Assembly (NCBI RefSeq): GCF_006351005.1
Contig: NZ_VENP01000026.1
Span: 1 to 47,586 of the forward strand
Direction of reading: 5' to 3'
From: Miniimonas arenae
GTDB taxonomy: Bacteria; Actinomycetota; Actinomycetes; Actinomycetales; Beutenbergiaceae
Length of the DNA: 47,586 bases
In this document: in pieces, positions 20,907 through 47,586 of the stretch
How positions within the stretch are numbered: position 1 is the first letter of the stretch
How the letters are laid out: each line of letters begins with the position of its first letter
Notes under the pieces: generated by a model
The model's input: only the letters and a program-made list of their open reading frames with translations
Told to the model about the DNA's origin: nothing
Databases searched by the model: none
Position numbers and translations under genes: made by a program

Positions 20907-21806
20907 TCAGCCCTTGACCGCGCCCTGCAGCCCGCCGACGATCTGCTTCTGCGCGGTGAGGAAGAAGATCAGCGCGGGGATCATCGACAGCGTCGTGAAC
21001 GCGAACACCCCGGCCGTGTCCGAGGCGTGCTCGGAGGAGAAGTCGGCGACGCCGAGCGGCAGGGTGCGCATGTCGCCCTGCAGCAGGAGCAGCGGCAGCA
21101 GGTAGGCGTTCCACGAGCCGACGAACGCGAGCACGCCGACGGTGACCATGCCGGGCCGCGAGAGCGGCAGCAGGATCCGCCAGAAGAAGCCGATCCGCCC
21201 GGTCCCGTCGAGCATCGCCGCCTCCTCGAGCTCCTTCGGGATCGCCTGCAGGAACGGGCGCAGGATCACCACGGTCAGCGGCAGCGCGAACGCGGCCTGG
21301 GGCAGGGCGATGCCGGCCCACGTGTTGCCGAGGTGCAGCTCGCGCGTGGTGATGATGAAGAGCGGGATGACCGCGACGGTCGCGGGGAACAGCAGCCCCA
21401 TGACGAAGATCGTGAACAGGCCCTCGCGGCCGCGGAACTGGTAGCGCGCCAGCGGGTAGGCCGCCATGATCCCGCACACCACCACGAGCACCGTGGACAT
21501 CGTCGCGATCGCGACCGAGTTGAGCGTGTAGCGCCAGAACTGGCTGCCCTGCAGCACGTTGAGGTAGTTGTCGAAGACCCACGGGTCGGGCCAGCCGGCC
21601 GGGTTCTCCGCGAGCTGGGCGTTGGTACGGAATCCGCCGATGACGCCGACGAGCACCGGCAGCAGCGTGAAGAACACGACGATCGCGGCCAGGACGTAGA
21701 CCCACGGGCTCGGCCGCCCGATCGCCCGACGGCGAGGGGTCGCCTCGGCCGCGTCGGGCGCCGGCCGGCGCGGGGTGAGGTCGCGGGTGGGGGCTGCGGC
21801 GCTCAT
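20907..21806 (-). CDS. CUT1 ABC transporter permease (BxlG/MalG-type)
   Basis: A 299-residue permease with six hydrophobic segments. The EAA loop reads LEEAAMLDGTGRIGFFWRI and the end is GGLQGAVKG, typical of the MalG-like partner. ATG 21,806 overlaps the preceding stop by 4 nt. The next gene is the GH3, so import and hydrolysis are co-transcribed. The ATPase is again absent. Confidence 0.93.
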   Translation of the reverse strand: MSAAAPTRDLTPRRPAPDAAEATPRRRAIGRPSPWVYVLAAIVVFFTLLPVLVGVIGGFRTNAQLAENPAGWPDPWVFDNYLNVLQGSQFWRYTLNSVAIATMSTVLVVVCGIMAAYPLARYQFRGREGLFTIFVMGLLFPATVAVIPLFIITTRELHLGNTWAGIALPQAAFALPLTVVILRPFLQAIPKELEEAAMLDGTGRIGFFWRILLPLSRPGMVTVGVLAFVGSWNAYLLPLLLLQGDMRTLPLGVADFSSEHASDTAGVFAFTTLSMIPALIFFLTAQKQIVGGLQGAVKG

Positions 21807-24294: not shown

Positions 24295-25296
24295 GTGCAG
24301 TCGCGGGTGACCATCGTCGACGTGGCGCGCGAGGCCGGCGTCTCGGTCGCGACCGTCTCCAAGGTGCTGAACGGCAAGGACGGCGTGGCGGGTGCGACCG
24401 CCGTGCGCGTCCAGGGCGTCATCGAGACGCTCGGGTACGAGTCGAGCATCGTCGCGCGCAGCCTGCGCTCCAGCCGCACCAACGTGGTGGGCATCCTCGT
24501 GCCCGAGTTCGAGCCGTTCTCCGCCGAGGTGCTCAAGGGCGTCGCGCGCGGGATCGGGGAGACCCAGTACGAGCTGCTCGCGTACGCCGGGGCCGGCGCA
24601 CGGCTGCACGAGGGCTGGGAGCGGCGCTCGCTGTCCCGCCTCAGCGGCACGCTCATCGACGGCGCGGTCCTCGTCACCCCCACGGTCACGGAGGTCGCCA
24701 CGACGATCCCGGTGGTGGCGATCGACCCGCACACCGGCACGTCGCGCCTGCCGTCGGTCGTCTCGGACAACGACGACGGCGGCTACCAGGCCGCCCGGCA
24801 CCTGCTCGACCTCGGCCACACCCGCATCGCCTTCATCTCGGGCCGGCCGGACCTGGAGTCCTCGCGCGGGCGCGAGGCGGGCTACCGCCGCGCGATGACC
24901 GAGGCGGGGCTCGCCGTCGACCCCGCGCTCGTCGTCGCGGGCGACTACCAGCGCGAGGGCGCGCGCCGCGCCACCGCGGCCCTGCTCGACCTCGCCGAGC
25001 CGCCGACCGCCGTGTTCGCCGCGAACGACCTGTCGGCGCTGGCCACGATCGAGGAGGCGACCCAGCGCGGCGTCGACGTGCCGGGTGGGCTCTCGGTGGT
25101 CGGCTTCGACGACGTGCCCGAGGCCGCGCGAAGCGTGCCGGGCCTGACCACGGTGCGCCAGCAGATGAGCGAGATGGGCGCCGTGGCCGCCGCGATGCTG
25201 CTCGACCTGCTGCGCCGCAGCGAGCCGGTGAACCCCCACGTGCGGCTGGGGACGGAGCTCGTGGTGCGCGCGAGCACCGCCGTGCCACGGCGGTGA
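24295..25296 (+). CDS. LacI-family regulator (BxlR-like)
   Basis: A 333-residue regulator with HTH VSVATVSKVLNGKDGVAG near the N-terminus and a sugar-binding domain ending LVVRASTAVPRR. The GTG at 24,295 has no Shine-Dalgarno sequence but a TATGCT -10-like box ends 6 nt upstream, so the mRNA may be leaderless. It is divergent from the binding-protein operon with the palindrome between, and overlaps the decayed S66 gene by 4 nt. It probably represses the importer and itself. Confidence 0.93.
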   Translation: MQSRVTIVDVAREAGVSVATVSKVLNGKDGVAGATAVRVQGVIETLGYESSIVARSLRSSRTNVVGILVPEFEPFSAEVLKGVARGIGETQYELLAYAGAGARLHEGWERRSLSRLSGTLIDGAVLVTPTVTEVATTIPVVAIDPHTGTSRLPSVVSDNDDGGYQAARHLLDLGHTRIAFISGRPDLESSRGREAGYRRAMTEAGLAVDPALVVAGDYQREGARRATAALLDLAEPPTAVFAANDLSALATIEEATQRGVDVPGGLSVVGFDDVPEAARSVPGLTTVRQQMSEMGAVAAAMLLDLLRRSEPVNPHVRLGTELVVRASTAVPRR

Positions 25297-26048
25297 GTGC
25301 CACGGCGCCCGAGCTTCTGCGTCCGCGCGCGCTGCGGCGCGGGGATCTCGTGGTGATCGCGTCGCTCTCCGGCCCGCTCCCGGCGATGTACGAGCCGAAC
25401 GTCACGCGGACCGAGCGCGTCCTGGAGGGCATGGGCTTCCGCGTCCGGCGCGCACCCCTGCTCGAGGTGGGCCGACAGCGGTGGTGGAGCTCGGCGTCGC
25501 CCGCGCAGATCGCCGCCGAGCTCAACGGGCTGCTGCGCGACCCCGAGGTGCGGGCGATCGTCGCGAGCGACGGCGGGCAGACCGTCTTCGGCTAGTTCGA
25601 CCTCGTCGACCTCGACGCGATCCGGGCCGATCCCAAGCCCGTCCTCGGGTACAGCGACCTCTCGCTGCTGCACCTCGCGCTCGTGCAGGCGACCCGGTTC
25701 GCCGTGCCGCCGGAGTGGTTCGACGGCGCGGTGCTGTTCTGGGAGGAGATCGGCGGGATCGCCGCGCACGTGTGGAGCTATCTGCAGGTGATGCGGCACG
25801 CCGGCATCCTTGACCGGATCTCGGGGATGGTCGTGGGCGTGCCGCGGGACATCGCCGGGCTCGACGGGCCGGGCGAGCCGTCGCTGCGCGAGATCGTCGA
25901 CGACGTCCTCGGGGACCGCGACATCCCGGTGCTGGCCGGGGTGGACGTCGGTCACGCCGGGGCGAACCTGCCGATGCCGGTGGGGATCCGGGTGGGCCTG
26001 GACGCGGGCGAGCGCACGCTCGCGCTGCTCGAGCCGGCGGTGCGGTAG
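25293..26048 (+). pseudogene. Broken LD-carboxypeptidase/MccF-like S66 peptidase
   Basis: GTG 25,293 overlaps the LacI stop. The frame reads like an S66 peptidase up to SDGGQTVFG, then meets TAG at 25,593-25,595. The same frame continues with FDLVDLDAIRADPKPVLGYS, including the nucleophile Ser in GYSD. It then goes straight to FDGAVLFWEE (catalytic Glu) and VDVGHAGANLPMPVG (catalytic His). Only about 30 residues separate Ser and Glu, where the family has about 100, so an in-frame internal deletion is likely besides the nonsense codon. Both changes suggest a dead gene. The final TAG lies in the 14-bp repeat array. Confidence 0.85.
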
Positions 26049-26114
26049 GGCGTCGCGGTAGGGCGTCGCGTCTAGGGCGTCGCGTCTAGGGCGTCGCGTC
26101 TAGGGCGTCGCGTC
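26046..26114. repeat. 14-bp tandem repeat, five units
   Basis: Units TAGGGCGTCGCGTC begin at 26,059, 26,073, 26,087 and 26,101, preceded by a 13-bp variant at 26,046. The array supplies the stop codon of the S66 pseudogene on the plus strand and the stop of the LacI gene on the minus strand (CTA at 26,100-26,102). It looks like slippage expansion of one gene's 3' end. Confidence 0.9.
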
Positions 26115-27125
26115 CGGGTCGGAGGACATCCGCACCACGAGCTCGGGGGTGAACTGGACGTGCTCGGGGCCGCTCGCGCGGTCGTCCTGGCGCAGCAGCA
26201 GGTCCGCGGCGGCCCAGCCGATCTCGTGGATGGGCTGACGGATCGTGGTGAGCGGCACCATGAGCATCCCGGCGAAGGAGATGTCGTCGTAGCCGACCAC
26301 CGCGATGTCCTGCGGCACGCGCACGCCCCGGCGCAGCAGGGTGCGCAGCACCCCGAGCGCCACGAGGTCGTTGACGCAGAAGATGCCGGTGGGCCGCTCG
26401 TCCTCGGGCATCGCGAGGATGCGCAGGGCGGCGTCGTCGCCCGACTCGACGTTGAGCGACGTGATCGGGACCTCGAGGAGGTCCTTCGGGGACCGGCCCG
26501 CGTCGGCCAGGGCGGCGCGGGCGCCGAGGAGGCGGTCCACGCACTGACGGATCGACGCCGGGCCGTTCACGAACGCGATCCGCTCGTGGCCGCGCGCCAC
26601 GAGGTGCCCGACGGCGAGCGACCCGCCGTGCACGTCGTCCACCGACACCGAGGGGAAGGAGGAGTCCGCGTCGGCGTCCATGAGGACGACGTGCGTGCCG
26701 CGCTCGCGCAGCGCCTCGAAGTCGGACAGGTCGGGCCCGCACGGGGTGACGAGCACGCCGCGCACGCCGTGCTGCTCGTAGAGGTTGAGGAACCGGGTCT
26801 CGCGCGCGGGGTCGTCGTCGGAGGACGAGACCAGCAGGGCCAGGCCGTCCGCCTCGAGCCGGTCCTCGATGCCGCGCGCGATGAGCGTGAAGAAGGGGTT
26901 CCCGACGTCGAGCACGATCGCTCCGACCGTCTGCGCGACACCGGCGCGCAGCTGCCGCGCGGAGGCGCTGGGCACGAAGTCCAGCTCCTCGATCGCGGCC
27001 AGGACGCGCTCCCGGGTCCCCTCCGACACGCGCTCGGGCCGGTTGAGGACGTTGCTCACGGTACCGACGGACACGCGTGCGATGCGGGCGACGTCGGCGA
27101 CGGAGGGGCGGGGTCTCACAGGCAC
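26100..27125 (-). CDS. LacI-family regulator, paralogue 1 of the rhamnose locus
   Basis: A 341-residue LacI protein with HTH RVSVGTVSNVLNRPERVSEG and a C-terminal sugar-binding domain. The start is uncertain: GTG 27,125 or GTG 27,119. A CACAAT box 6 nt before the latter would fit a leaderless mRNA. It is a close paralogue of the next LacI gene with almost the same recognition helix, so both should see the same DNA. The ligand pockets differ more. It probably controls the TGAA-N4-TTCA sites of the rhamnose and rhamnogalacturonan genes. The stop lies in a 14-bp repeat. Confidence 0.92.
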   Translation of the reverse strand: MPVRPRPSVADVARIARVSVGTVSNVLNRPERVSEGTRERVLAAIEELDFVPSASARQLRAGVAQTVGAIVLDVGNPFFTLIARGIEDRLEADGLALLVSSSDDDPARETRFLNLYEQHGVRGVLVTPCGPDLSDFEALRERGTHVVLMDADADSSFPSVSVDDVHGGSLAVGHLVARGHERIAFVNGPASIRQCVDRLLGARAALADAGRSPKDLLEVPITSLNVESGDDAALRILAMPEDERPTGIFCVNDLVALGVLRTLLRRGVRVPQDIAVVGYDDISFAGMLMVPLTTIRQPIHEIGWAAADLLLRQDDRASGPEHVQFTPELVVRMSSDPDATP

Positions 27126-27193
27126 ATTGTGACGGTTCAGAGCGGGTGCTCGGCGCAGCGGCGCTCCGGGCGTACCGGAGCGGCGGGTCGTCG

Positions 27194-27345
27194 GTGGACG
27201 TGGTCGCGGCCGCGTCCGCGTCAGACGCGGCACGGGCTTGTTGGGCGCGTGCTTCGTGGACACCGCGGCCGCCGCGTCCACGTGAGTCGCGGCACGGGGC
27301 CGTCCGGCGCGTCCCCGGTGGACACCGTCACCGCGGCGTCCACGC
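27194..27345. repeat. 62-bp tandem repeat, about 2.5 units, between the two LacI genes
   Basis: GTGGAC recurs at 27,194, 27,256 and 27,318, an exact 62-bp period. Within a unit, GTGGAC-N14-GTCCAC forms a stem, followed by a conserved CGCGGCA block. The units are diverged copies of the reverse complement of the array at 47,354-47,586. The 229-bp gap contains little else. Confidence 0.85.
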
Positions 27346-27354
27346 TGCGCGCCC

Positions 27355-28413
27355 TCACGCCCCCGGGTCGGACGAACGTCGCACCACGAGCTCCGGCGCG
27401 AACCGCACGCGGGTCGGCCCGACCGCGTCCTCGCCGTCGAGCCGCAGCAGCAGGTCGGCCGCTGTCCAGCCGATCTCGTGCGTCGGCTGGCGCACCGTGG
27501 TGAGCGGGACGACGAGCATCGCGGCCCACGGCACGTCGTCGTACCCGACCACCGCGACGCCGTCGGGCACCGGGACTCCCGCCCGCACGAGCGTGCTGAG
27601 CGCCCCGAGCGCCACGAGGTCGTTCACGCAGAAGATCGCGGTGGGTCGGGTCGACTCCGGCAACGCCAGCAGGCGCTCGGCGGCGAGCGTCCCGTGCTCG
27701 GCGTTGAGCGACGGCAGCGGCATCTCGACGAGCACCTCGTCCGGGTCGAGACCCGCGTTCACGACGGCGAGCCGCGCCCCAGCGAGACGGTCTGCGCACT
27801 GGTGGATCGTGAGCGGTCCGTTGAAGAGCGCGATCCGCCGGTGCCCGAGCTCGAGCAGGTGTGCGACGGGCAGGCTGGCCCCGAGCACGTCGTCGACGGA
27901 GACGCTCGGGAGCTCGTCCTCGCCGTCGACGTCCATGAGCACCACCGTCGTGCCGCGCGCGCGCAGGGCGTGCAGGTCCGCGCGCTCGGCGCTTGCCGGC
28001 GTGACGAGCACGCCGCGCACGCCGTGCTGCTCGTACAGCTGCAGCGCGCGGTTCTCCCGCTCGGGATCGTCGTCGGAGGACGACACGAGCAGCGCGAGGC
28101 CGTCGGCGCCGATGCGGTCCTCGACGCCGCGGGTGAGCGCCGTGAAGAACGGGTTCCCCACGTCGAGGACGATCGCCCCGACGCTGCGCGCGCGACCGGC
28201 CCGGAGCTGGCGGGCCGACTCGCTCGGCACGAACTCCAGCTCCGCGATCGCGGACTCCACACGGGAGCGGGTCCGGGGGGACACTCGCTCCGGACGATTG
28301 AGCACGTTGGAGACGGTGCCGACCGACACGCGAGCGAGTCGCGCGACGTCCATGACCGAGGGCCGGTGCCGCGCCGGCGTGGGCGCGGCGGTGGTCACGC
28401 TGTCGGCGGTCAT
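27355..28413 (-). CDS. LacI-family regulator, paralogue 2 of the rhamnose locus
   Basis: A 352-residue LacI protein with HTH RVSVGTVSNVLNRPERVSPR, the same core as paralogue 1. GGAGCTG precedes ATG 28,413. It follows the CE12 esterase by 28 nt and shares its promoter, which has a TGATTCGATTCA box in the spacer; this implies autoregulation. It likely senses rhamnose, rhamnulose or a rhamnogalacturonan fragment (inference). Confidence 0.92.
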   Translation of the reverse strand: MTADSVTTAAPTPARHRPSVMDVARLARVSVGTVSNVLNRPERVSPRTRSRVESAIAELEFVPSESARQLRAGRARSVGAIVLDVGNPFFTALTRGVEDRIGADGLALLVSSSDDDPERENRALQLYEQHGVRGVLVTPASAERADLHALRARGTTVVLMDVDGEDELPSVSVDDVLGASLPVAHLLELGHRRIALFNGPLTIHQCADRLAGARLAVVNAGLDPDEVLVEMPLPSLNAEHGTLAAERLLALPESTRPTAIFCVNDLVALGALSTLVRAGVPVPDGVAVVGYDDVPWAAMLVVPLTTVRQPTHEIGWTAADLLLRLDGEDAVGPTRVRFAPELVVRRSSDPGA

Positions 28414-29315: not shown

Positions 29316-29510
29316 TTGAGTGTGGGGCGGTTCACGGAACGGTCACCGGCGAGCGCGAGGCAGCGCTCGGCCGGCCCGTCGAGGAACGAGACCCGCACGA
29401 GCACGAGCGCAGCACCCAGCACAGCACCAGCACCACCGACCGGCACCCGCAGTCACCTGCAGCACCGAGCGCGGCATCCGACGCGCATGAGAAGGATCGA
29501 GGAAGTCATC

Positions 29511-30674
29511 GTGGACATCGCCGCAGCCAAGGCCGTCCTGGCCCAGCAGACCATCGAGGTGCCGTCCTGGGCGTACGGCAACTCCGGGACGCGCTTCAAG
29601 GTGTTCGGCACCCCCGGCACCCCCCGCGACCCGTGGGAGAAGATCGCCGACGCCGCCCAGGTCAACGCCGTCACCGGTGCCGCCCCGCGGGTGTCCCTGC
29701 ACATCCCGTGGGACAAGGTCGAGGACTACGACGCCCTCTCGGCGTACGCCCACGAGCAGGGCATGACGATCGGCGCGATCAACTCCAACGTCTTCCAGGA
29801 CGACGACTACCGACTCGGCAGCCTCGCCAACCCGGACGCCCGGGTGCGCGCCAAGGCCGTCGCCCACCACCTCGACTGCCTCGAGGTGATGCGCGCCGTC
29901 GGCAGCACGGACCTGAAGATCTGGCTCGCCGACGGCACGAACTACGCCGGTCAGGACTCCATCCGCGCGCGGCAGGACCGCGTCGCCGAGGGCCTCGAGC
30001 AGATCTACGCGGGCCTGCAGCCGGGCGAGCGGATCCTGCTCGAGTACAAGTTCTTCGAGCCCTTCTTCTACACGACCGACATCCCCGACTGGGGCACGAG
30101 CCTCGTGCACTGCATGGCCCTCGGCGAGCAGGCCACGGTCGTCCTCGACACCGGCCACCACGCCCCGGGCACGAACATCGAGTTCATCGTCGCGCAGCTG
30201 CTGCGCCTGGGCCGGCTCGGGGCGTTCGACTTCAACTCGCGCTACTACGCCGACGACGACCTCATCGTCGGGTCTGCCGACCCGTTCCAGCTGTTCCGGA
30301 TCATGCACGAGATCGTCCAGGCGGGCGCCCTCGACCCGGCGCTCGGCGTGAACTTCATGCTCGACCAGTGCCACAACATCGAGGCGAAGATCCCGGCCCA
30401 GATCCGGTCCGTGATGAACGTCCAGGAGGCGACGGCGAAGGCCCTGCTCGTGGACGCCGACGCCCTGGGTGCGGCGCAGCAGGCCGGCGACGTCCTCGGC
30501 GCGCACGCCGTGCTCATGGACGCCTTCAACACCGACGTGCGCCCGATCCTCGCCGAGGTGCGCGAGGCCAAGGGCCTCGACGCCGACCCGATCAAGGCGT
30601 TCGCCGCCACCGGCTACGCCGAGAAGGTCGCGGCCGAGCGCGTCGGCGGCACCCAGGCCAGCTGGGGCGCCTGA
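29511..30674 (+). CDS. rhaI: L-rhamnose isomerase
   Basis: A 387-residue cytoplasmic isomerase converting L-rhamnose to L-rhamnulose. Motifs match the Pseudomonas/actinobacterial RhaI type: KIWLADGTNYAGQD, LEYKFFEPFFY, LDTGHHAPGTN and FDFNSRYYADDD carry the metal-binding Glu, Asp and His residues. GTG 29,511 is preferred because GAGGAAG lies 5 nt upstream; an in-frame ATG at 29,487 has no ribosome site. It is followed by rhaB after 5 nt. Repression through the TGAAACGATTCA box is likely. Confidence 0.93.
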   Translation: MDIAAAKAVLAQQTIEVPSWAYGNSGTRFKVFGTPGTPRDPWEKIADAAQVNAVTGAAPRVSLHIPWDKVEDYDALSAYAHEQGMTIGAINSNVFQDDDYRLGSLANPDARVRAKAVAHHLDCLEVMRAVGSTDLKIWLADGTNYAGQDSIRARQDRVAEGLEQIYAGLQPGERILLEYKFFEPFFYTTDIPDWGTSLVHCMALGEQATVVLDTGHHAPGTNIEFIVAQLLRLGRLGAFDFNSRYYADDDLIVGSADPFQLFRIMHEIVQAGALDPALGVNFMLDQCHNIEAKIPAQIRSVMNVQEATAKALLVDADALGAAQQAGDVLGAHAVLMDAFNTDVRPILAEVREAKGLDADPIKAFAATGYAEKVAAERVGGTQASWGA

Positions 30675-30679
30675 CCTCG

Positions 30680-32209
30680 ATGTCCAGCACGTCCAGCGCG
30701 GCACAGGGCCGCTCGTTCGCGGCCGTCGACCTCGGCGCCACCTCCGGGCGCGTCATCGTCGGCACCGTGGTCGGAGAGCCCGGCGCCGAGCGCGTCGAGC
30801 TCACCGAGGTGGGTCGCTTCCCCAACGAGCCCGTGCTCGTCCCCGCCACGCGCGGGGACGAGCGCGCGGTCCTCACCTGGGACGTGCCCGCGCTCTGGCG
30901 CGGGATCCTCGCGGGCCTGCGCGACGCCGTCGCGCGCTTCGGCCCCCTCGCCGGGATCGGGATCGACTCCTGGGCGGTGGACTACGGGATGGTCGACGGC
31001 GAGGGTCGCCTCCTCGGCAACCCCACCTGCTACCGCGACATGCGCACCGATCCCGTCCTCGCGCGAGTCTTCGACCTGGTGAGCGCGGCGGACCAGTACG
31101 CCGTCAACGGGCTCCAGGTGCAGCCGTTCACGACGGCGTTCCAGCTCCTCGCCGAGACCCGGCTCGAGCAGGCCGACCGCGTGCTGCTGCTGCCGGACCT
31201 GCTCGGGGCCTGGCTCACGGGCGTCGAGCGCGCCGAGATCACGAACGCCTCCACCACGGGCCTGCTCGACGCCGCCTACCGAACCTGGTCCACCGACCTC
31301 GCCGAGCGGCTCGGCCTGCCGGCCCGCGTGCTGCCCGAGCTCGTCGCGCCCGGTGAGCTCCTGGGGCACGTCCGGCCCGGCCTCGCGGCCGTGCTCGGGG
31401 TGCCCGACGGCGAGCTCCTGCCGGTCTGGACGGTCGGCTCCCACGACACCGCCTCCGCGGTGGTGGCCGTCCCGATGGACCGATCCGACGCCGCGTACAT
31501 CTCGTGCGGGACGTGGTCGCTGGTCGGGCTCGAGCTCGACGAGCCCGTCCTCACCGAGGCCTCCCGCGCCGCGAACGTCACCAATGAGGCGGGCGTGGAC
31601 GCCACGATCCGCTACCTCAAGAACGTCATGGGCCTGTGGGTGCTCACCGAGACGATGCGGGGCTGGGCGGCCGCGGGCCGCGAGGTCCCGCTCGCCGACG
31701 CGCTCGCGCAGGCCGCCACCGTCGAGCCCCTGCGCACGGTCGTCGACATCGACCACGCGAGCCTCCTGCCGCCTGGCGACATGCCCGCGCGCCTCGCGTC
31801 GCTCGCCCGGGCGACCGGCCAGCCGGTGCCCGAGACCGTCGGCGAGGTGGTGCGGTGCATCCTCGACTCGCTCGCCCTCGCCTACCGGCGTGCCGTGCGC
31901 GAGGTGAGCGCCCTGGCCGACCGCAGCGTCGCCGTCGTGCACGTGGTCGGCGGCGGCGTGCACAACGAGGCCCTCATGCAGCTCGCGGCCGACGCGATCG
32001 GCGTGCCGGTCGTGACCGGCCCGGCCGAGGGCGCCGCGCTCGGCAACGTGCTCGTCCAGGCGCGTGCCGCCGGCGTGCTGCACGGCACGCTCGGCGACCT
32101 GCGGCGCGTCGTGGAGCGGTCCACGCCGCTGCGGCGGTACGAGCCCGGCGCGGGCGACGTCTCGACGCCGGACGCCTGGGACGACGCCGAGCGTCGCGCG
32201 CACCCGTGA
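30680..32209 (+). CDS. rhaB: L-rhamnulokinase
   Basis: A 509-residue FGGY-family kinase that phosphorylates L-rhamnulose. The N-terminus has FAAVDLGATSGRVIVG, then GIDSWAVDYG and, near the C-terminus, HVVGGGVHNEALMQLAADA, as in RhaB. It starts 5 nt after the rhaI stop and is co-transcribed. No obvious ribosome site precedes the ATG, so coupling with rhaI may matter. Confidence 0.93.
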   Translation: MSSTSSAAQGRSFAAVDLGATSGRVIVGTVVGEPGAERVELTEVGRFPNEPVLVPATRGDERAVLTWDVPALWRGILAGLRDAVARFGPLAGIGIDSWAVDYGMVDGEGRLLGNPTCYRDMRTDPVLARVFDLVSAADQYAVNGLQVQPFTTAFQLLAETRLEQADRVLLLPDLLGAWLTGVERAEITNASTTGLLDAAYRTWSTDLAERLGLPARVLPELVAPGELLGHVRPGLAAVLGVPDGELLPVWTVGSHDTASAVVAVPMDRSDAAYISCGTWSLVGLELDEPVLTEASRAANVTNEAGVDATIRYLKNVMGLWVLTETMRGWAAAGREVPLADALAQAATVEPLRTVVDIDHASLLPPGDMPARLASLARATGQPVPETVGEVVRCILDSLALAYRRAVREVSALADRSVAVVHVVGGGVHNEALMQLAADAIGVPVVTGPAEGAALGNVLVQARAAGVLHGTLGDLRRVVERSTPLRRYEPGAGDVSTPDAWDDAERRAHP

Positions 32210-32327: not shown

Positions 32328-33152
32328 ATGAGCACCACCCCCATTCGCCCCAGTCTTGGGGAGATCCTCGACAGCATGGGCGAGGCAGGCGCTCGCATCT
32401 CCGAGATCGACGCCGCCGAGGCCGGCGCGGGCAACATCTCGGTCTACCTCGGGTGGGACACCGAGGTGCGCCGTCGGTTCCCGCTCCAGGAGGAGATCGA
32501 GCTCCCGCTGCCCGCCCCGCACCTCGTGGGCGGCACGCTGCTCGTGACGGGGTCCGGTCGCCGGCTGCGCCAGATCATCGCCGACCCGGAGTCGTGCGTC
32601 GCGGCCGTGAAGGTGCACGACGGCGGCACGCACGCCACGATGTACACCTCGCCGAAGCGCCTCTTCGAGCGCCTGACCAGTGAGTTCAACTCCCACCTCG
32701 GCGTCCACGAGGACCAGGTCGCGCGCCGCGGGGTGAACTTCCAGGCCGTCGTGCACGCCCAGCCGCCGCACCTGACCTACCTCTCCCACATTCCCGAGTA
32801 CCGCGACGACGAGTCGATGAACCGCCGCATCCTGCGCTGGGAGCCGGAGTCGATCGTGTCCCTGTCCCAGGGCATCAAGGTGCTCCCGTTCTTCATCCCG
32901 GGCTCGGCCGAGATGATGGCCGCGAACGTCGAGGGCCTGCGCGAGTTCGAGATCACCCTGTGGAGCAAGCACGGCGTGATGGCGCGGTCGGACCTGTCGG
33001 TGACCCGCGCCGTCGACCGCATCGAGTACGCCGAGACCGGCGCCAAGTACGAGTACATGGATCTCGCCGCGGGCGGTCGCGCCGAGGGGCTCACGCGCGA
33101 GGAGATCGCCTCGGTCGCGAACGAGTTCAACATCGACTCGCGCTGGGTCTGA
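32328..33152 (+). CDS. rhaD: Rhamnulose-1-phosphate aldolase, class II
   Basis: A 274-residue class II aldolase, the same length as E. coli RhaD, cleaving rhamnulose-1-phosphate to dihydroxyacetone phosphate and L-lactaldehyde. GGAAGGA precedes the ATG. Glu119 in TSEFNSHLG and His215 in WSKHGVMA fit the known catalytic Glu and third metal His. The HxH pair appears here as His143-Ala-Gln145 (VVHAQPPHL), so one zinc ligand may differ or be supplied by His148. A second aldolase domain is encoded at 38,040. The gene is followed by rhaM after 1 nt. Confidence 0.88.
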   Translation: MSTTPIRPSLGEILDSMGEAGARISEIDAAEAGAGNISVYLGWDTEVRRRFPLQEEIELPLPAPHLVGGTLLVTGSGRRLRQIIADPESCVAAVKVHDGGTHATMYTSPKRLFERLTSEFNSHLGVHEDQVARRGVNFQAVVHAQPPHLTYLSHIPEYRDDESMNRRILRWEPESIVSLSQGIKVLPFFIPGSAEMMAANVEGLREFEITLWSKHGVMARSDLSVTRAVDRIEYAETGAKYEYMDLAAGGRAEGLTREEIASVANEFNIDSRWV

Positions 33153-33153
33153 C

Positions 33154-33531
33154 GTGCCCCGCTACTGCTTCACCTCGCAGGTCGACCCGCGCCACCTCGA
33201 CGCCTACAAGGCCGCGCACGCCGCGGTCTGGCCCGAGATGCTGCGGGCCCTGCGGGACGCGGGCTGGCGCAACTACTCGCTCTTCCTCTCCGACACCGGC
33301 CAGCTGATCGGCTTCTTCGAGGCCGATGACGCCGACGCCGCCCAGGCGCGGATGGCCGCCACCGAGGTCAACGGACGGTGGCAGGCCGAGATGGCGCGGC
33401 TGTTCGTGGGGGAGGGGAACCCCGACGAGGGGTTCAGCTACCACCCGGAGATCTTCAACCTCGACGACCAGCTCGCCGCGGCGGAGGAGTCCGGGCTCGG
33501 ACTGCCGGGCGCTGATCGTCCGGAGCGCTGA
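33154..33531 (+). CDS. rhaM: L-rhamnose mutarotase
   Basis: A 125-residue protein of the RhaM/YiiL dimeric ferredoxin-like family, interconverting the anomers of L-rhamnose. Typical motifs are the conserved HAAVWPEML, RNYSLFL and GFFEADD. It starts with GTG one base after the rhaD stop and depends on coupled translation. A strong terminator hairpin follows. Confidence 0.92.
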   Translation: MPRYCFTSQVDPRHLDAYKAAHAAVWPEMLRALRDAGWRNYSLFLSDTGQLIGFFEADDADAAQARMAATEVNGRWQAEMARLFVGEGNPDEGFSYHPEIFNLDDQLAAAEESGLGLPGADRPER

Positions 33532-34034: not shown

Positions 34035-35369
34035 ATGAGCAACACCGACAGTGTGACCACGGCCGAGGTGGCCGCTGGCACGAGGGACCCGAAGCGCGCC
34101 GCGATGAGCGGCTGGATCGGGAGCGCGCTGGAGTACTACGACTTCGCGCTCTACTCGCAGGCAGCAGCGCTGGTCTTCCCGGCGATCTTCTTCCCGAGCG
34201 AGAACAAGACCGTCGGGATCATCGCCTCGCTGGCGACCTACGCCGTCGGGTACGTCGCCCGGCCCGTGGGCGCCGTCGTCCTCGGCGCGTGGGGAGACCG
34301 CAAGGGACGCAAGAACGTCCTCGTGTTCGCGATGCTCCTCATGGGCTTCTCGACCCTCGCCGTCGGCCTCCTGCCGACGTACGCGCAGGTCGGCATGCTC
34401 GCCCCGATCCTGCTGGTGCTGCTGCGCCTGATCCAGGGCTTCGCCGTCGCCGGCGAGCTCGGCGGTGCGAGCGCGATGATCGTGGAGCACTCCCCGGACG
34501 AGCGCCGCGGCTTCTTCGCGAGCTTCAGCCTCCAGGGCACGCAGGTCGGCTCGATCCTCGCCACCGGCGTCATGCTGCCCCTGTCGATCGTGCTGGACGA
34601 CGCGCACTTCGAGTCCTGGGGCTGGCGCGTGCCGTTCCTGCTGAGCGCCGTCGTGATCGTCGCCGGCTACCTCATCCGCCGCCGGGTGCAGGAGCCGCCC
34701 GCGTACCTCGCCCAGGCCGACGCCCCGAAGCGGCGCTTCCCGTTCGTCGAGCTGATGAAGACCCACCCGTGGGCCGTCGTGCGCTGCATCCTCATGACCT
34801 TCACGAACGTCATCGGCATGGCGACCCTGGTGTTCGGCGTCTCCTACGCCACGCAGGACGGGTACGACATCGGCTTCAGCAAGAGCGACCTGCTCTGGGT
34901 CACGCTGGTGGCCAACATCACCGCCGTCGTCACCATCCCGATCTTCGGGGCGCTCTCGGACAAGATCGGCCGCCGCGTCTTCATGCTCGTCGGTGGCATC
35001 GCCGGCGGTGCGCTCGCCGGGGTCTACCTCGCCGCGGTGGACGCGCGGAACCTGTTCCTCGTGTTCGTCATGGTCGTGATCGTCCAGGGCATCTTCTTCC
35101 AGATGTGGAACGCGACGTTCGCGACGTTCTTCCAGGAGCAGTTCCCGATGCGCATCCGCGTCACCGGCTTCGCCGTGTCGCAGAACATCGGCCTCATGCT
35201 CGCCTCGTTCTTCCCGGCGCTCTTCACGGCCATCGCGCCTCCCGGGTCGACCAACGTCCCGCTCACGATCGGCCTGGTCACGTTCGGCATCTGCGTCGTG
35301 GCGGCGGTCGCTACGCTGCTGACGCCGGAGACCAAGGGCAAGTCGCTCGCGGAGCTCGAGACCGCCTGA
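34035..35369 (+). CDS. MFS transporter, metabolite:H+ symporter (MHS/ShiA-like)
   Basis: A 444-residue membrane protein with about 12 hydrophobic segments. The MHS signatures are YYDFALYSQ at the first helix, GDRKGRKNVLVFAML in loop 2-3 and LRLIQGFAVAGELGGASAMIVEH. It lies in the rhamnose/rhamnogalacturonan block in front of GH105, and no ABC importer is present in that block. It may import rhamnose, a uronate or an unsaturated digalacturonate-type product; MHS members mostly carry organic acids, so an acidic sugar is attractive (inference). GGAAGAAG lies before the ATG. Confidence 0.88.
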   Translation: MSNTDSVTTAEVAAGTRDPKRAAMSGWIGSALEYYDFALYSQAAALVFPAIFFPSENKTVGIIASLATYAVGYVARPVGAVVLGAWGDRKGRKNVLVFAMLLMGFSTLAVGLLPTYAQVGMLAPILLVLLRLIQGFAVAGELGGASAMIVEHSPDERRGFFASFSLQGTQVGSILATGVMLPLSIVLDDAHFESWGWRVPFLLSAVVIVAGYLIRRRVQEPPAYLAQADAPKRRFPFVELMKTHPWAVVRCILMTFTNVIGMATLVFGVSYATQDGYDIGFSKSDLLWVTLVANITAVVTIPIFGALSDKIGRRVFMLVGGIAGGALAGVYLAAVDARNLFLVFVMVVIVQGIFFQMWNATFATFFQEQFPMRIRVTGFAVSQNIGLMLASFFPALFTAIAPPGSTNVPLTIGLVTFGICVVAAVATLLTPETKGKSLAELETA

Positions 35370-35457: not shown

Positions 35458-36618
35458 ATGGAGCAGTGGAACCCGATGGTGCAGAAGGCGTGGCCGGTGA
35501 AGCACAGCGCGCTGCTGCGGGCGCCGGAGCGCGTCGCCACGCGGGACGAGATCGACGACCTCGTCCACCGGCTCACCGACAACCTCGTCCACATCACGGA
35601 CGAGACGGGGCAGTTCCTGCTCCGCCTCGACGACGGCCGCGTCATCGACACCAAGGGCTGGGCCGGGTGGGAGTGGACGCACGGCGTGGGGCTCTACGGC
35701 ATCTGGCAGTACTACGACCAGACGGGCGACGAGGCCACGCGCCAGATCATCGACGACTGGTTCACCGCACGGTTCGCCGAGGGCACCACGAAGAACGTCA
35801 ACACCATGGCGCCCTTCCTCACGCTCGCGTACCGCTACGAGGAGACCCGCGACCGCACGCTCCTGCCCTGGCTGGACGCCTGGGCCGAGTGGGCCATGCG
35901 GGACATGCCGCGCACGCCGCACGGCGGGATGCAGCACCTCACGCTCGCGGAGGAGAACCACCACCAGCTGTGGGACGACACCCTCATGATGACGGTGCTG
36001 CCGCTGACGAAGATCGGCCTGCTGCTGGACCGGCCGGCCTACGTGCAGGAGGCGACGTTCCAGTTCCTCACACACGTCGCCTATCTCATGGACCGCGAGA
36101 CCGGCCTGTGGTTCCACGGCTGGACCTTCGAGGGCAGGCACAACTTCGCCCGCGCGCGGTGGGCCCGGGGCAACTCCTGGCTCACCATGGTGATCCCGGA
36201 CTTCCTCGAGCTGCTCGACCTGCCCGAGGGCGACCCGGTGCGCCGCTTCCTGATCGAGGTGCTCCAGGCCCAGGTCGAAGCCCTCGCGGACCTGCAGGAC
36301 GACTCAGGTCTGTGGCACACGCTGCTGGACGACCCGGACTCCTACCTCGAGGCGTCGGCCACCGCGGGCTTCGCCTACGGGATCCTCAAGGGCGTGCGCA
36401 AGGGGTACCTCGACAAGCGGTTCGCCGCGGTCGGCGAGAAGGCGATCCGCGCGATCATCGCCAACGTGAGCGACGACGGCGAGCTCCAGCAGGTCTCCTT
36501 CGGCACCGGCATGGGGCCCAGCCTGGACTTCTACCACCAGATCCCGCTGACCTCGATGCCGTACGGGCAGGCCATGGCCATCCTGTGCCTCGCGGAGTAC
36601 CGCCGGACCTACTACTGA
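35458..36618 (+). CDS. GH105 unsaturated rhamnogalacturonyl/glucuronyl hydrolase
   Basis: A 386-residue intracellular (alpha/alpha)6-barrel enzyme. It hydrates the unsaturated uronic acid left by polysaccharide lyases and releases 5-keto-4-deoxyuronate. The family motif with catalytic Asp is LWDDTLMM (Asp173/174), and RWARGNSW and HGWTFEGRHNFA are conserved substrate-site segments of YteR-like enzymes. There is no signal peptide. The product is the precursor of the substrate of KduD, encoded next. The lyase that makes its substrate is not in the window. Confidence 0.92.
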   Translation: MEQWNPMVQKAWPVKHSALLRAPERVATRDEIDDLVHRLTDNLVHITDETGQFLLRLDDGRVIDTKGWAGWEWTHGVGLYGIWQYYDQTGDEATRQIIDDWFTARFAEGTTKNVNTMAPFLTLAYRYEETRDRTLLPWLDAWAEWAMRDMPRTPHGGMQHLTLAEENHHQLWDDTLMMTVLPLTKIGLLLDRPAYVQEATFQFLTHVAYLMDRETGLWFHGWTFEGRHNFARARWARGNSWLTMVIPDFLELLDLPEGDPVRRFLIEVLQAQVEALADLQDDSGLWHTLLDDPDSYLEASATAGFAYGILKGVRKGYLDKRFAAVGEKAIRAIIANVSDDGELQQVSFGTGMGPSLDFYHQIPLTSMPYGQAMAILCLAEYRRTYY

Positions 36619-36750: not shown

Positions 36751-37515
36751 ATGATTCTCGACTCGTTCCGTCTGGATGGAAAGGTCGCTCTTGTCACGGG
36801 TTCGTCCCGTGGCCTGGGCCAGGGTGCGGCGGTTGCGCTCGCGGAGGCGGGTGCGGATGTCGCGCTGCTGGACCGTGCGCCGGCGACCGAGACCGCGGAG
36901 CAGATCGAGGCGCTCGGGCGTCGGGTGCACCTGATCGAGGCGGACCTGATCAAGGCGACTCCGGAGGAGCTGGACGCGGCGGTGCAGGAGGTCGTGGACT
37001 CTCTGGGGCGTATCGATGTGCTGGTGAACAACGCGGGCATCATCCGTCGGGCGCCGTTGCTGGAGCACCCGGCCTCGGACTGGGACGACGTGCTGGCGAT
37101 CAACCTGGACGCGGTGTTCCACCTGTCGCAGGCGGCGGCGCGGCGGTATGTGGCGCAGGGCGGTGGGAAGATCATCAACATCGCCTCGATGCTGTCGTTC
37201 CAGGGCGGGATCCTGGTGCCGGGGTATGCGGCGAGCAAGCACGCGGTCGCGGGGATCACGAAGTCGTTCGCGAACGAGCTGGCGGCGCACAACGTGAATG
37301 TGAATGCGATCGCGCCGGGGTACATGGCGACGGCGAACACGGCGCCGATCCGGTCGGACGAGGCGCGGGAGAAGTCGATCCTGGACCGTATTCCGGCGGC
37401 GCGGTGGGGGACGCCCGCGGACCTGCAGGGACCGTTCGTGTTCCTGGCCTCGCCCGCGTCGGACTACCTCAACGGTGCGATCATCCCCGTCGACGGCGGG
37501 TGGCTCGTACGCTGA
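36751..37515 (+). CDS. kduD: 2-deoxy-D-gluconate 3-dehydrogenase / DKII reductase
   Basis: A 254-residue classical SDR. The Rossmann motif TGSSRGLGQG is at residues 16-25, NNAG at 93-96, and the catalytic set is Ser146, Tyr159 and Lys163 (YAASK). It matches E. coli KduD closely, including GGKIINIASMLSFQGGI and INVNAIAPGYMAT-like segments. It reduces 3-deoxy-D-glycero-2,5-hexodiulosonate to KDG, the step two reactions after GH105. KduI is not in the window. Codon use differs from the neighbours: many GCG, CTG, CGT and GAT codons instead of GCC, CTC, CGC and GAC. Confidence 0.93.
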   Translation: MILDSFRLDGKVALVTGSSRGLGQGAAVALAEAGADVALLDRAPATETAEQIEALGRRVHLIEADLIKATPEELDAAVQEVVDSLGRIDVLVNNAGIIRRAPLLEHPASDWDDVLAINLDAVFHLSQAAARRYVAQGGGKIINIASMLSFQGGILVPGYAASKHAVAGITKSFANELAAHNVNVNAIAPGYMATANTAPIRSDEAREKSILDRIPAARWGTPADLQGPFVFLASPASDYLNGAIIPVDGGWLVR

Positions 37516-38039: not shown

Positions 38040-40094
38040 ATGTCCCAGTCCCCGGCCGCGGCCCTCGTCGCGCGCTCCAACCGCCTCGGGTCCGACCCCC
38101 GCGTCACCAACTACGCGGGCGGCAACACGTCCGCCAAGGGCTCCGCCACCGACCCCGTCACGGGTGAGGACGTCGAGCTGCTGTGGGTCAAGGGCTCCGG
38201 CGGCGACCTCGGCACGCTGACCGAGAAGAACCTCGCCGTGCTCCGCCTCGACCGACTCCGCGCGCTCCCGAACGTCTACCCGGGCGTGGACCGCGAGGAC
38301 GAGATGGTCGCCGCGTTCGACTACTGCCTGCACGGCAAGGGCGGCGCCGCGCCGTCGATCGACACCGCGATGCACGGCCTCGTCGACGCCGCGCACGTGG
38401 ACCACCTGCACCCCGACGCGGGCATCGCCGTCGCGACGTCCGCCGACGGCGAGCGCCTCACGAGCGAGATCTTCGGCGACCGCGTCGTGTGGGTGCCCTG
38501 GCGCCGCCCCGGCTTCCAGCTCGGCCTCGACATCGCCGCCATCAAGGAGGCCAACCCGCAGGCCATCGGCTGCATCCTCGGTGGCCACGGCATCACCGCC
38601 TGGGCCGAGGACTCGGAGGAGGCCGAGGCGCGCAGCCTCGACATCATCCGCACCGCCGAGGCGTACATCGAGCGCACGACGGCGGAGCTCGCCGCCCGCG
38701 GCGAGCACCCCTTCGGCGCGGTGCGCGCCGGGTTCGAGCCGCTCGAGGCCGCCGCCCGCCGCGAGCGCGCCGCCGCCCTCGCGCCGGTGATCCGCGGCAT
38801 CGCGTCCGCCGACAAGCCGCAGGTCGGCCACTTCACCGACTCCGACGTCGTGCTGGACTTCGTCTCGCGCGAGAAGCTGGCCCCCCTGGCCGAGCTCGGC
38901 ACCTCCTGCCCCGACCACTTCCTGCGCACGAAGGTCAAGCCCCTCGTGCTCGACCTGCCGACCGACGCGCCGCTCGAGGACGCCGTCGCTCGCCTGCACG
39001 AGCTGCACGAGGCCTACCGGGCCGACTACGCCGGCTACTACGAGCGCAACAAGGTCGACGACAGCCCCGCGATGCGCGGTGCCGACCCGGCGATCGTGCT
39101 CGTGCCCGGCGTCGGGATGTTCTCGTTCGGCAAGGACAAGCAGACCGCGCGCGTGGCGGGGGAGTTCTACGTCAACGCGATCAACGTGATGCGCGGTGCC
39201 GAGGCCATCTCGACCTACGCCCCGATCGACGAGAACGAGAAGTTCCGGATCGAGTACTGGGCGCTGGAGGAGGCCAAGCTCCAGCGGATGCCGAAGCCGA
39301 AGGCGCTCGCCACGCGCGTCGCGGTGGTGACGGGTGCGGCGTCGGGCATCGGCAAGGCGATCGCCGAGCGGCTCGCGGCCGACGGCGCCTGCGTCGTCAT
39401 CGCCGACCTCGACGAGGCCAAGGCGCAGGCGGCCGCGGCCGAGATCGGCGGCCCCGACGTCGCTGTCGGCGTCGCGGCGGACGTCACGTCCGAGGAGGCC
39501 GTGGCCGAGCTCGTCAAGGCCACGGTGCTCGCGTTCGGCGGCGTCGACCTCGTCGTGAACAACGCCGGGCTGTCGATCTCCAAGCCGCTCCTGGAGACCA
39601 CGACGAAGGACTGGGACCTCCAGCACGACGTCATGGCCCGCGGCTCTTTCCTCGTGGCCCGCGAGGCGGCGCGCGCGATGATCGCGCAGAACCTCGGCGG
39701 CGACATCGTCTACATCGCCTCGAAGAACTCCCTGTTCGCGGGCCCGAACAACATCGCCTACTCGGCCACGAAGGCCGACCAGGCGCACCAGGTCCGTCTG
39801 CTGGCCGCCGAGCTCGGCGAGCACGGGATCCGCGTCAACGGGATCAACCCCGACGGCGTGGTCCGCGGCTCGGGCATCTTCGCCGGCGGCTGGGGCGCCA
39901 AGCGCGCGGCCGTCTACGGCGTGCCCGAGGAGGAGCTGGGCCAGTACTAAGCGCAGCGCACGCTGCTGAAGAAGGAGGTGCTGCCCGAGCACGTCGCCGC
40001 CGCGGTGGCCGCGCTCACCGGTCCGGACCTCGTCCAGACCACGGGCCTGCACATCCCGGTCGACTCCGGCGTCGCGGCGGCGTTCCTGCGCTGA
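38040..40094 (+). pseudogene. Bifunctional rhamnulose-1-P aldolase/L-lactaldehyde dehydrogenase interrupted by an ochre codon
   Basis: The full frame has 684 codons. Residues 1-about 420 are a RhaE-type class II aldolase domain (VTNYAGGNTSAKG, HVDHLHPDAGIAV). From about 422 an SDR domain has TGAASGIGKA, NNAG and Tyr574/Lys578 (YSATK). Codon 637 is TAA (39,948-39,950) and the frame goes on without a shift as AQRTLLKKEVLPEHVAAAV to the TGA at 40,092, including the expected SDR tail HIPVDSG. Family members have Tyr-Tyr before AQRTLL, so TAC to TAA is likely. The truncated 636-residue product keeps the aldolase domain but loses 48 residues of the dehydrogenase. A ribosome site (CCAGGAGAG) precedes the ATG. 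Confidence 0.88.
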
Positions 40095-40171: not shown

Positions 40172-40281
40172 TTCGCGAGAGGAAGTCGGTCCTTTCGCGA
40201 GAGGATGTCGGTCCTTTCGCGAGAGGATGTCGGTCCTTTCGCGAGAGGAAGTCCGTCCTTTCGCGAGAGGATCTTCGACGC
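40172..40281. repeat. 22-bp tandem repeat, five units
   Basis: Units TTCGCGAGAGGAWGTCSGTC plus CT begin at 40,172, 40,194, 40,216, 40,238 and 40,260; the last is degenerate after GAGAGGAT. Every unit has the palindrome TCGCGA. The array lies in the convergent gap between the aldolase/dehydrogenase gene and the ArsR-like gene, 19 bp past the terminator palindrome. Its spacing (two helical turns) would place bound proteins on one face. Confidence 0.9.
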
Positions 40282-47353: not shown

Positions 47354-47586
47354 GACGTGGGCCCGCGCCGCGGGAGCTGTTGCCGCGTCTGGGGTGGACG
47401 TGGCGGTGGCGGTGTCCACCCCGGCCGCGCCGCGGGAGGTGTTGCCGCGTCTGGGGTGGACGTGGCGGTGGCGGTGTCCACGTGGGCCGCGCCGCGGGAG
47501 GTGTTGCCGCGTCTGGGGTGGACGTGGCGGTGGCGGTGTCCACCGCAGGCGCGCCGCGGGAGCTGTTGCCGCGTCTGGGGTGGACG
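47354..47586. repeat. 62-bp tandem repeat running off the window
   Basis: CTGGGGTGGACG ends at 47,400, 47,462, 47,524 and 47,586, an exact 62-bp period over at least 3.7 units. Each unit has GTGGAC-N14-GTCCAC, able to form a hairpin, and a GCCGCGTCTGGGG block. Units differ mainly after GTCCAC. The period is not a multiple of three, and no frame is stable across units, so it is not coding. Confidence 0.92.

Follow-up and report, generated by a model that had tools for sequence, protein, structure and literature searches.

In the sections of Rodionova et al. 2013 cited here (PMC3870299), RhaEW is described as taking the place of RhaD in Actinomycetales. The known examples of this bifunctional protein (family TIGR02632) include YuxG of B. 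subtilis and Caur_2283 of C. aurantiacus. The locus that we examined lies in the window, i.e. the whole analysed stretch of 47,586 nucleotides of Miniimonas arenae DNA (contig NZ_VENP01000026.1), and it resembles the known systems in that its rhaEW gene encodes the same two domains and has rhaI, a rhaB-like gene and rhaM beside it (Table 1). It carries, however, a stop codon inside the reading frame of rhaEW.

In the frame of the ATG at 38040, the DNA at 39942-39956 reads CAG TAC TAA GCG CAG. The gene continues in one frame as far as the TGA at 40092-40094, with the TAA as its sole interruption, so that the read-through product has 684 residues when the TAA is counted as residue 637, and 47 sense codons separate this TAA from the TGA. 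Domain searches placed the PF00596 aldolase domain at residues 10-209 of the read-through protein and the SDR models at about residues 426-678. NF006188 matched residues 3-684 above its cut-off (profile positions 4-679 of 679), and TIGR02632 matched residues 7-684 (2-676 of 676) with 1046.8 bits against a cut-off of 567.75. The protein ended at residue 636, as the frame is read in translation table 11, still scored 983.3 bits with TIGR02632, with the profile covered to position 628 of 676, but the complete C-terminal SDR domain was absent from it. The structure prediction, which was used only for the order of helices and strands since its confidence was low in the tail (low pLDDT), placed the last helix at residues 649-659 and the last strand at 671-674. 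The earlier note on this DNA had described a TAA in frame with 47 conserved codons after it, and this was confirmed by the DNA, the translation and the end-to-end family matches. Just after the gene, at 40172-40271, there is a tandem array of 4.5 copies of a 22-base unit.

Table 1. Features of the rha cluster in the window (bit scores are given against the family cut-off)
Feature	Coordinates	Strand	Basis and remarks
rhaI, L-rhamnose isomerase	29487..30674	+	TIGR02635, 600.7 bits vs 531.35
rhaB-like rhamnulokinase	30680..32209	+	best match TIGR02627, 391.3 bits, below 527.95
separate class II aldolase, RhaD-like; may back up the aldolase half of RhaEW	32328..33152	+	NF002963 and TIGR02624 below cut-off; 1gt7 1.4e-17
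rhaM, L-rhamnose mutarotase	33154..33531	+	PF05336, 92.7 bits vs 23.4
metabolite/H+ symporter-like	34035-35369	+	profile search; between rhaM and rhaEW, absent there in L040
glycoside hydrolase-like	35458-36618	+	NF051900; between rhaM and rhaEW, absent there in L040
KduD-like SDR	36751-37515	+	profile search; between rhaM and rhaEW, absent there in L040
rhaEW, bifunctional rhamnulose-1-phosphate aldolase / lactaldehyde dehydrogenase	38040..40094	+	read-through product matches NF006188 and TIGR02632 end to end
in-frame TAA, codon 637, Tyr invariant in relatives	39948..39950	+	translation, ortholog comparison
47 conserved codons 3' of the TAA	39951..40091	+	constraint vs orthologues; predicted last SDR helix and strand

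Codon 637 encoded tyrosine in all 109 orthologous loci that were fetched (L010-L118), as TAC in 108 and as TAT in one; 103 of the loci were located by a motif (102 TAC, 1 TAT) and the remaining 6, all TAC, by alignment, and some of the 109 may represent one species drawn from two collections. This invariance supports the proposal, made from the window alone, that a single base change had hit a Tyr codon. Such a hit is ordinary, as 148 single-base changes in rhaEW would create a stop and 32 of them fall in Tyr codons. The stop itself was found only in the genome of the window. This held for the 143 genomes, out of 394 sampled from the class, that matched TIGR02632 at E 1e-200 or better, and likewise for the 30 full-length RhaEW orthologues that a protein search listed in a set of 59 genomes, to which the genome of the window belongs. 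In the latter search, stops within the match were otherwise carried by distant SDR or aldolase paralogues, at most 38% identical, in G015, G027 and G038. No second full-length RhaEW was found in the genome of the window, where the next listed protein match was a 38%-identical SDR on contig C78.

The sequence beyond the stop showed little divergence. Compared with the nearest orthologues, G008 and G009, the tail differed in 2 of 47 residues in each case, with 20 and 14 synonymous codon differences, respectively; in the part before the stop, 74 of 635 and 76 of 633 residues differed, with 129 and 137 synonymous differences. In 11 of 12 orthologue comparisons the tail had diverged less than the remainder of the protein, and in the twelfth, with L025, slightly more (10/47 vs 120/630). 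In an alignment of 22 sequences, the 21 relatives were invariant at 331 of 636 columns before codon 637 and at 25 of 47 after it, and the protein of the window had 4 private residues where all 21 others agreed, compared to 0-7 for the others. Judged from these comparisons, the tail appears to have been fully constrained until very recently, or to be so still. An undecayed tail leaves three possibilities, a very young stop, an error or readthrough, and the earlier note, which had listed recent loss, read-through and sequencing error, thus offered the right set of options. In our opinion, the best explanation, and a fairly probable one, is that rhaEW has very recently acquired a single nonsense mutation in this strain; the undecayed tail would then indicate that the stop is too young for other marks to have accumulated. 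The absence of other decay in the gene, as well as the open frames of rhaI, the rhaB-like gene, the RhaD-like gene and rhaM, speak against a loss.

The undecayed frame and tail, and a rha cluster that is otherwise undecayed too, would also fit a base-call or assembly error with the gene intact in the organism, an explanation that we regard as possible, if somewhat doubtful. In a single assembly, the two cases look alike. The assembly is a draft in 148 contigs, and in a region of contig C67 (L200, G000:C67:43000-46900) two adjacent transporter ATPase genes have one frame switch each, at about C67:45230 and C67:46240, i.e. 1.5 to 2.6 kb from the contig end. Both look like errors in the length of short homopolymer runs, which suggests that the draft is probably not error-free; these are, however, length changes and not substitutions. 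A different kind of irregularity was noticed at G000:C71:35346-36573, where the halves of an MFS gene (profile positions 207-347 and 1-187) are listed separately in long open frames, so that a frame switch or a split is possible.

Interior stops in this genome were sought by coding-potential scans with two filters. With the stricter one there were 5 candidates, of which the first 400 kb contributed 2 and the window the other 3, at 25593, 39948 and 20909; the laxer one gave these three again, together with 17 from an 800 kb sample outside the window, 20 in all. The 17 and the candidate at 20909 were discarded by eye as junctions of neighbouring genes, with the end of one protein followed by a start 1 to 22 codons later; longer translations of 9 of the 17 read as junctions and the other 8 were judged from short context. 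The recall of the stricter filter was 1121 of 1713 interior Tyr positions, and about a third of interior stops could therefore be missed. With gene junctions set aside in this way, no interior TAA or TAG was recognised outside the window in the 800 kb sample, and in whole-genome domain searches the matches to ABC proteins (96), permeases (59), aldehyde dehydrogenases (7) and iron alcohol dehydrogenases (4) were all free of marked stops. Among 37 matches to PF07690, two contained a TGA, of which one overran what reads as the gene's own end and the other was below the cut-off. The lack of such stops in these samples indicates that errors of this kind are rare here, which argues against an error at codon 637.

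The same survey bears on the genetic code. None of the 44 tRNA genes in the genome, all read with ARAGORN, had an anticodon for TAA, TAG or TGA, and the 269 gene-like frames in 400 kb ended in TGA 234 times, in TAG 32 times and in TAA 3 times. Recoding of TAA or TAG was rejected, given that there was no suppressor tRNA, that no interior TAA or TAG was recognised in the 800 kb sample and that TAA is rare as a gene end; from the sequence, a recoded stop seems unlikely.

The second stop in the window, a TAG at 25593-25595, is codon 101 of an S66 peptidase gene (25293-26048), and it had been suggested that it may also replace a Tyr codon. In an alignment with 11 relatives, inspected by eye, the column of the TAG was Leu in 5 and Val in 6 and in none of them Tyr, although at identities of 29-38% the column is somewhat uncertain. 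The gene keeps parts of both S66 domains and, by eye, is without about 60 to 100 residues between them in comparison with relatives; it seems to be a separate case in which decay has gone further. A decoding cause common to the TAA and the TAG was likewise not supported by the tRNAs, the stop filters or the 800 kb scan. No statistical weight was given to the occurrence of both stops in the window, as it was these stops that had drawn attention to it. For annotation, this means that the two stops do not share a history and are no reason to assume an altered genetic code. Just 3' of the S66 gene, at 26046-26114, we found a tandem array of 5 copies of a 14-base unit.

In a third reading, a genuine stop would be partly read through and some full-length RhaEW still made. 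Against this, TAA is generally considered the tightest stop codon. Full constraint on the tail would agree with readthrough, but a stop too young for decay accounts for the constraint equally well; the tRNA set holds no decoder for any stop codon, the stop at codon 637 was present in none of the orthologues compared, and the RNA fold in the 80 bases 3' of the stop was not unusual (z 0.89), for which reason a stimulating fold was rejected. In favour of readthrough, in-frame stops in constrained bacterial genes are reported as widespread in the sections of Belinky et al. 2021 cited here (PMC7918605). Taken together, we consider readthrough very unlikely. Its extended form, in which the cell makes use of the TAA at low frequency to obtain mostly truncated protein and a little full enzyme, while the RhaD-like aldolase carries the flux and lactaldehyde passes to another enzyme, deserves equally little credence.

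If the stop arose by a recent nonsense mutation, as we favour, translation would end after residue 636. Loss of residues 637-684 would take away the final helix and the final strand predicted for the SDR fold, the RhaW dehydrogenase domain would not be expected to form a working enzyme, and the oxidation of L-lactaldehyde by this copy would be lost. We infer such a functional loss, a change in the organism rather than only in the assembly, and the bypass considered below; the stop, the invariant tyrosine, the otherwise intact gene and the second aldolase gene were observed directly. It was proposed in the earlier note that the aldolase domain would simply survive the truncation. This is doubtful, as the published assays, in the sections of PMC3870299 cited here, suggest that the aldolase half may depend on a functional dehydrogenase half for its activity, and a rhaEW knockout of B. 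subtilis is described there as giving no response to rhamnose. The fused aldolase half may thus fail too, and growth on rhamnose, if kept, would use the separate RhaD-like aldolase and another aldehyde or alcohol dehydrogenase for lactaldehyde.

The RhaD-like protein scored below the cut-offs of both relevant families (TIGR02624, 102.1 bits vs 400.95; NF002963, 140.9 vs 170) and is therefore named RhaD-like only. It matched 1gt7_A, a rhamnulose-1-phosphate aldolase (RhaD) of solved structure, at 1.4e-17 over residues 56-269, and the sugar-phosphate aldolase 1pvt_A equally well at 1.2e-17. By sequence, the product of this gene could take over the aldolase reaction, and the genome also encodes other dehydrogenases for aldehydes and alcohols; a second aldolase in the cluster could make the loss of RhaEW tolerable. 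The gene is rare. Of the set of 59 genomes, three had it, namely that of the window (G000), G009 and G035 (E 1e-10), and in the class sample of 394 it was found only in the window's own (E 1e-40). In L040 (Ruaniaceae bacterium KH17) rhaI, rhaB, rhaD, rhaM and an intact rhaEW are consecutive. In G008, rhaI, rhaEW and rhaB are neighbours, and the search of that genome gave no RhaD-like gene. A RhaD-like gene together with RhaEW is thus uncommon, and RhaEW is whole in G009, G035 and L040, the other genomes found to have both, from which it follows that redundancy alone does not predict loss.

The latter observation also weighs against an adaptive truncation, in which, with the RhaD-like aldolase present, loss of the dehydrogenase would divert lactaldehyde to another product. 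The position of the RhaD-like gene after rhaI and the rhaB-like gene, the three genes that part rhaEW from this cluster, unlike in L040, and the other aldehyde and Fe-type alcohol dehydrogenase genes of the genome would suit such a diversion, but the truncation is seen in one genome only and with no sign of selection, and we regard this explanation as extremely unlikely. Beside the rha cluster lie two adjacent genes of LacI-type regulators (26103-27281 and 27358-28413), both of which match one G008 regulator beside rhaI (67% and 65% identity). Two arrays with units of 62 bases lie at 27209-27344 (2.2 copies) and at the right end of the window (47363-47586, 3.6 copies).

Among the matches listed in our literature search on nonsense mutations and pseudogenes of rhamnose genes, none concerned RhaEW by its title or the start of its abstract. 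The closest described cases are the in-frame stops of Belinky et al. (PMC7918605), which, in the sections cited here, resemble ours as a single stop in an otherwise constrained gene; those stops were required in at least 2 genomes in order to reduce sequencing errors, whereas the RhaEW stop was seen in one genome only. With respect to the known RhaEW systems, the locus differs in that the frame would end at residue 636 and that the cluster also holds a stand-alone RhaD-like aldolase. If the favoured nonsense mutation is real, it adds one more recent mutation of this kind in a sugar-degradation gene, here in a cluster with two rhamnulose-1-phosphate aldolases of different type, and it would provide a small natural test of a RhaD-like enzyme replacing RhaEW.
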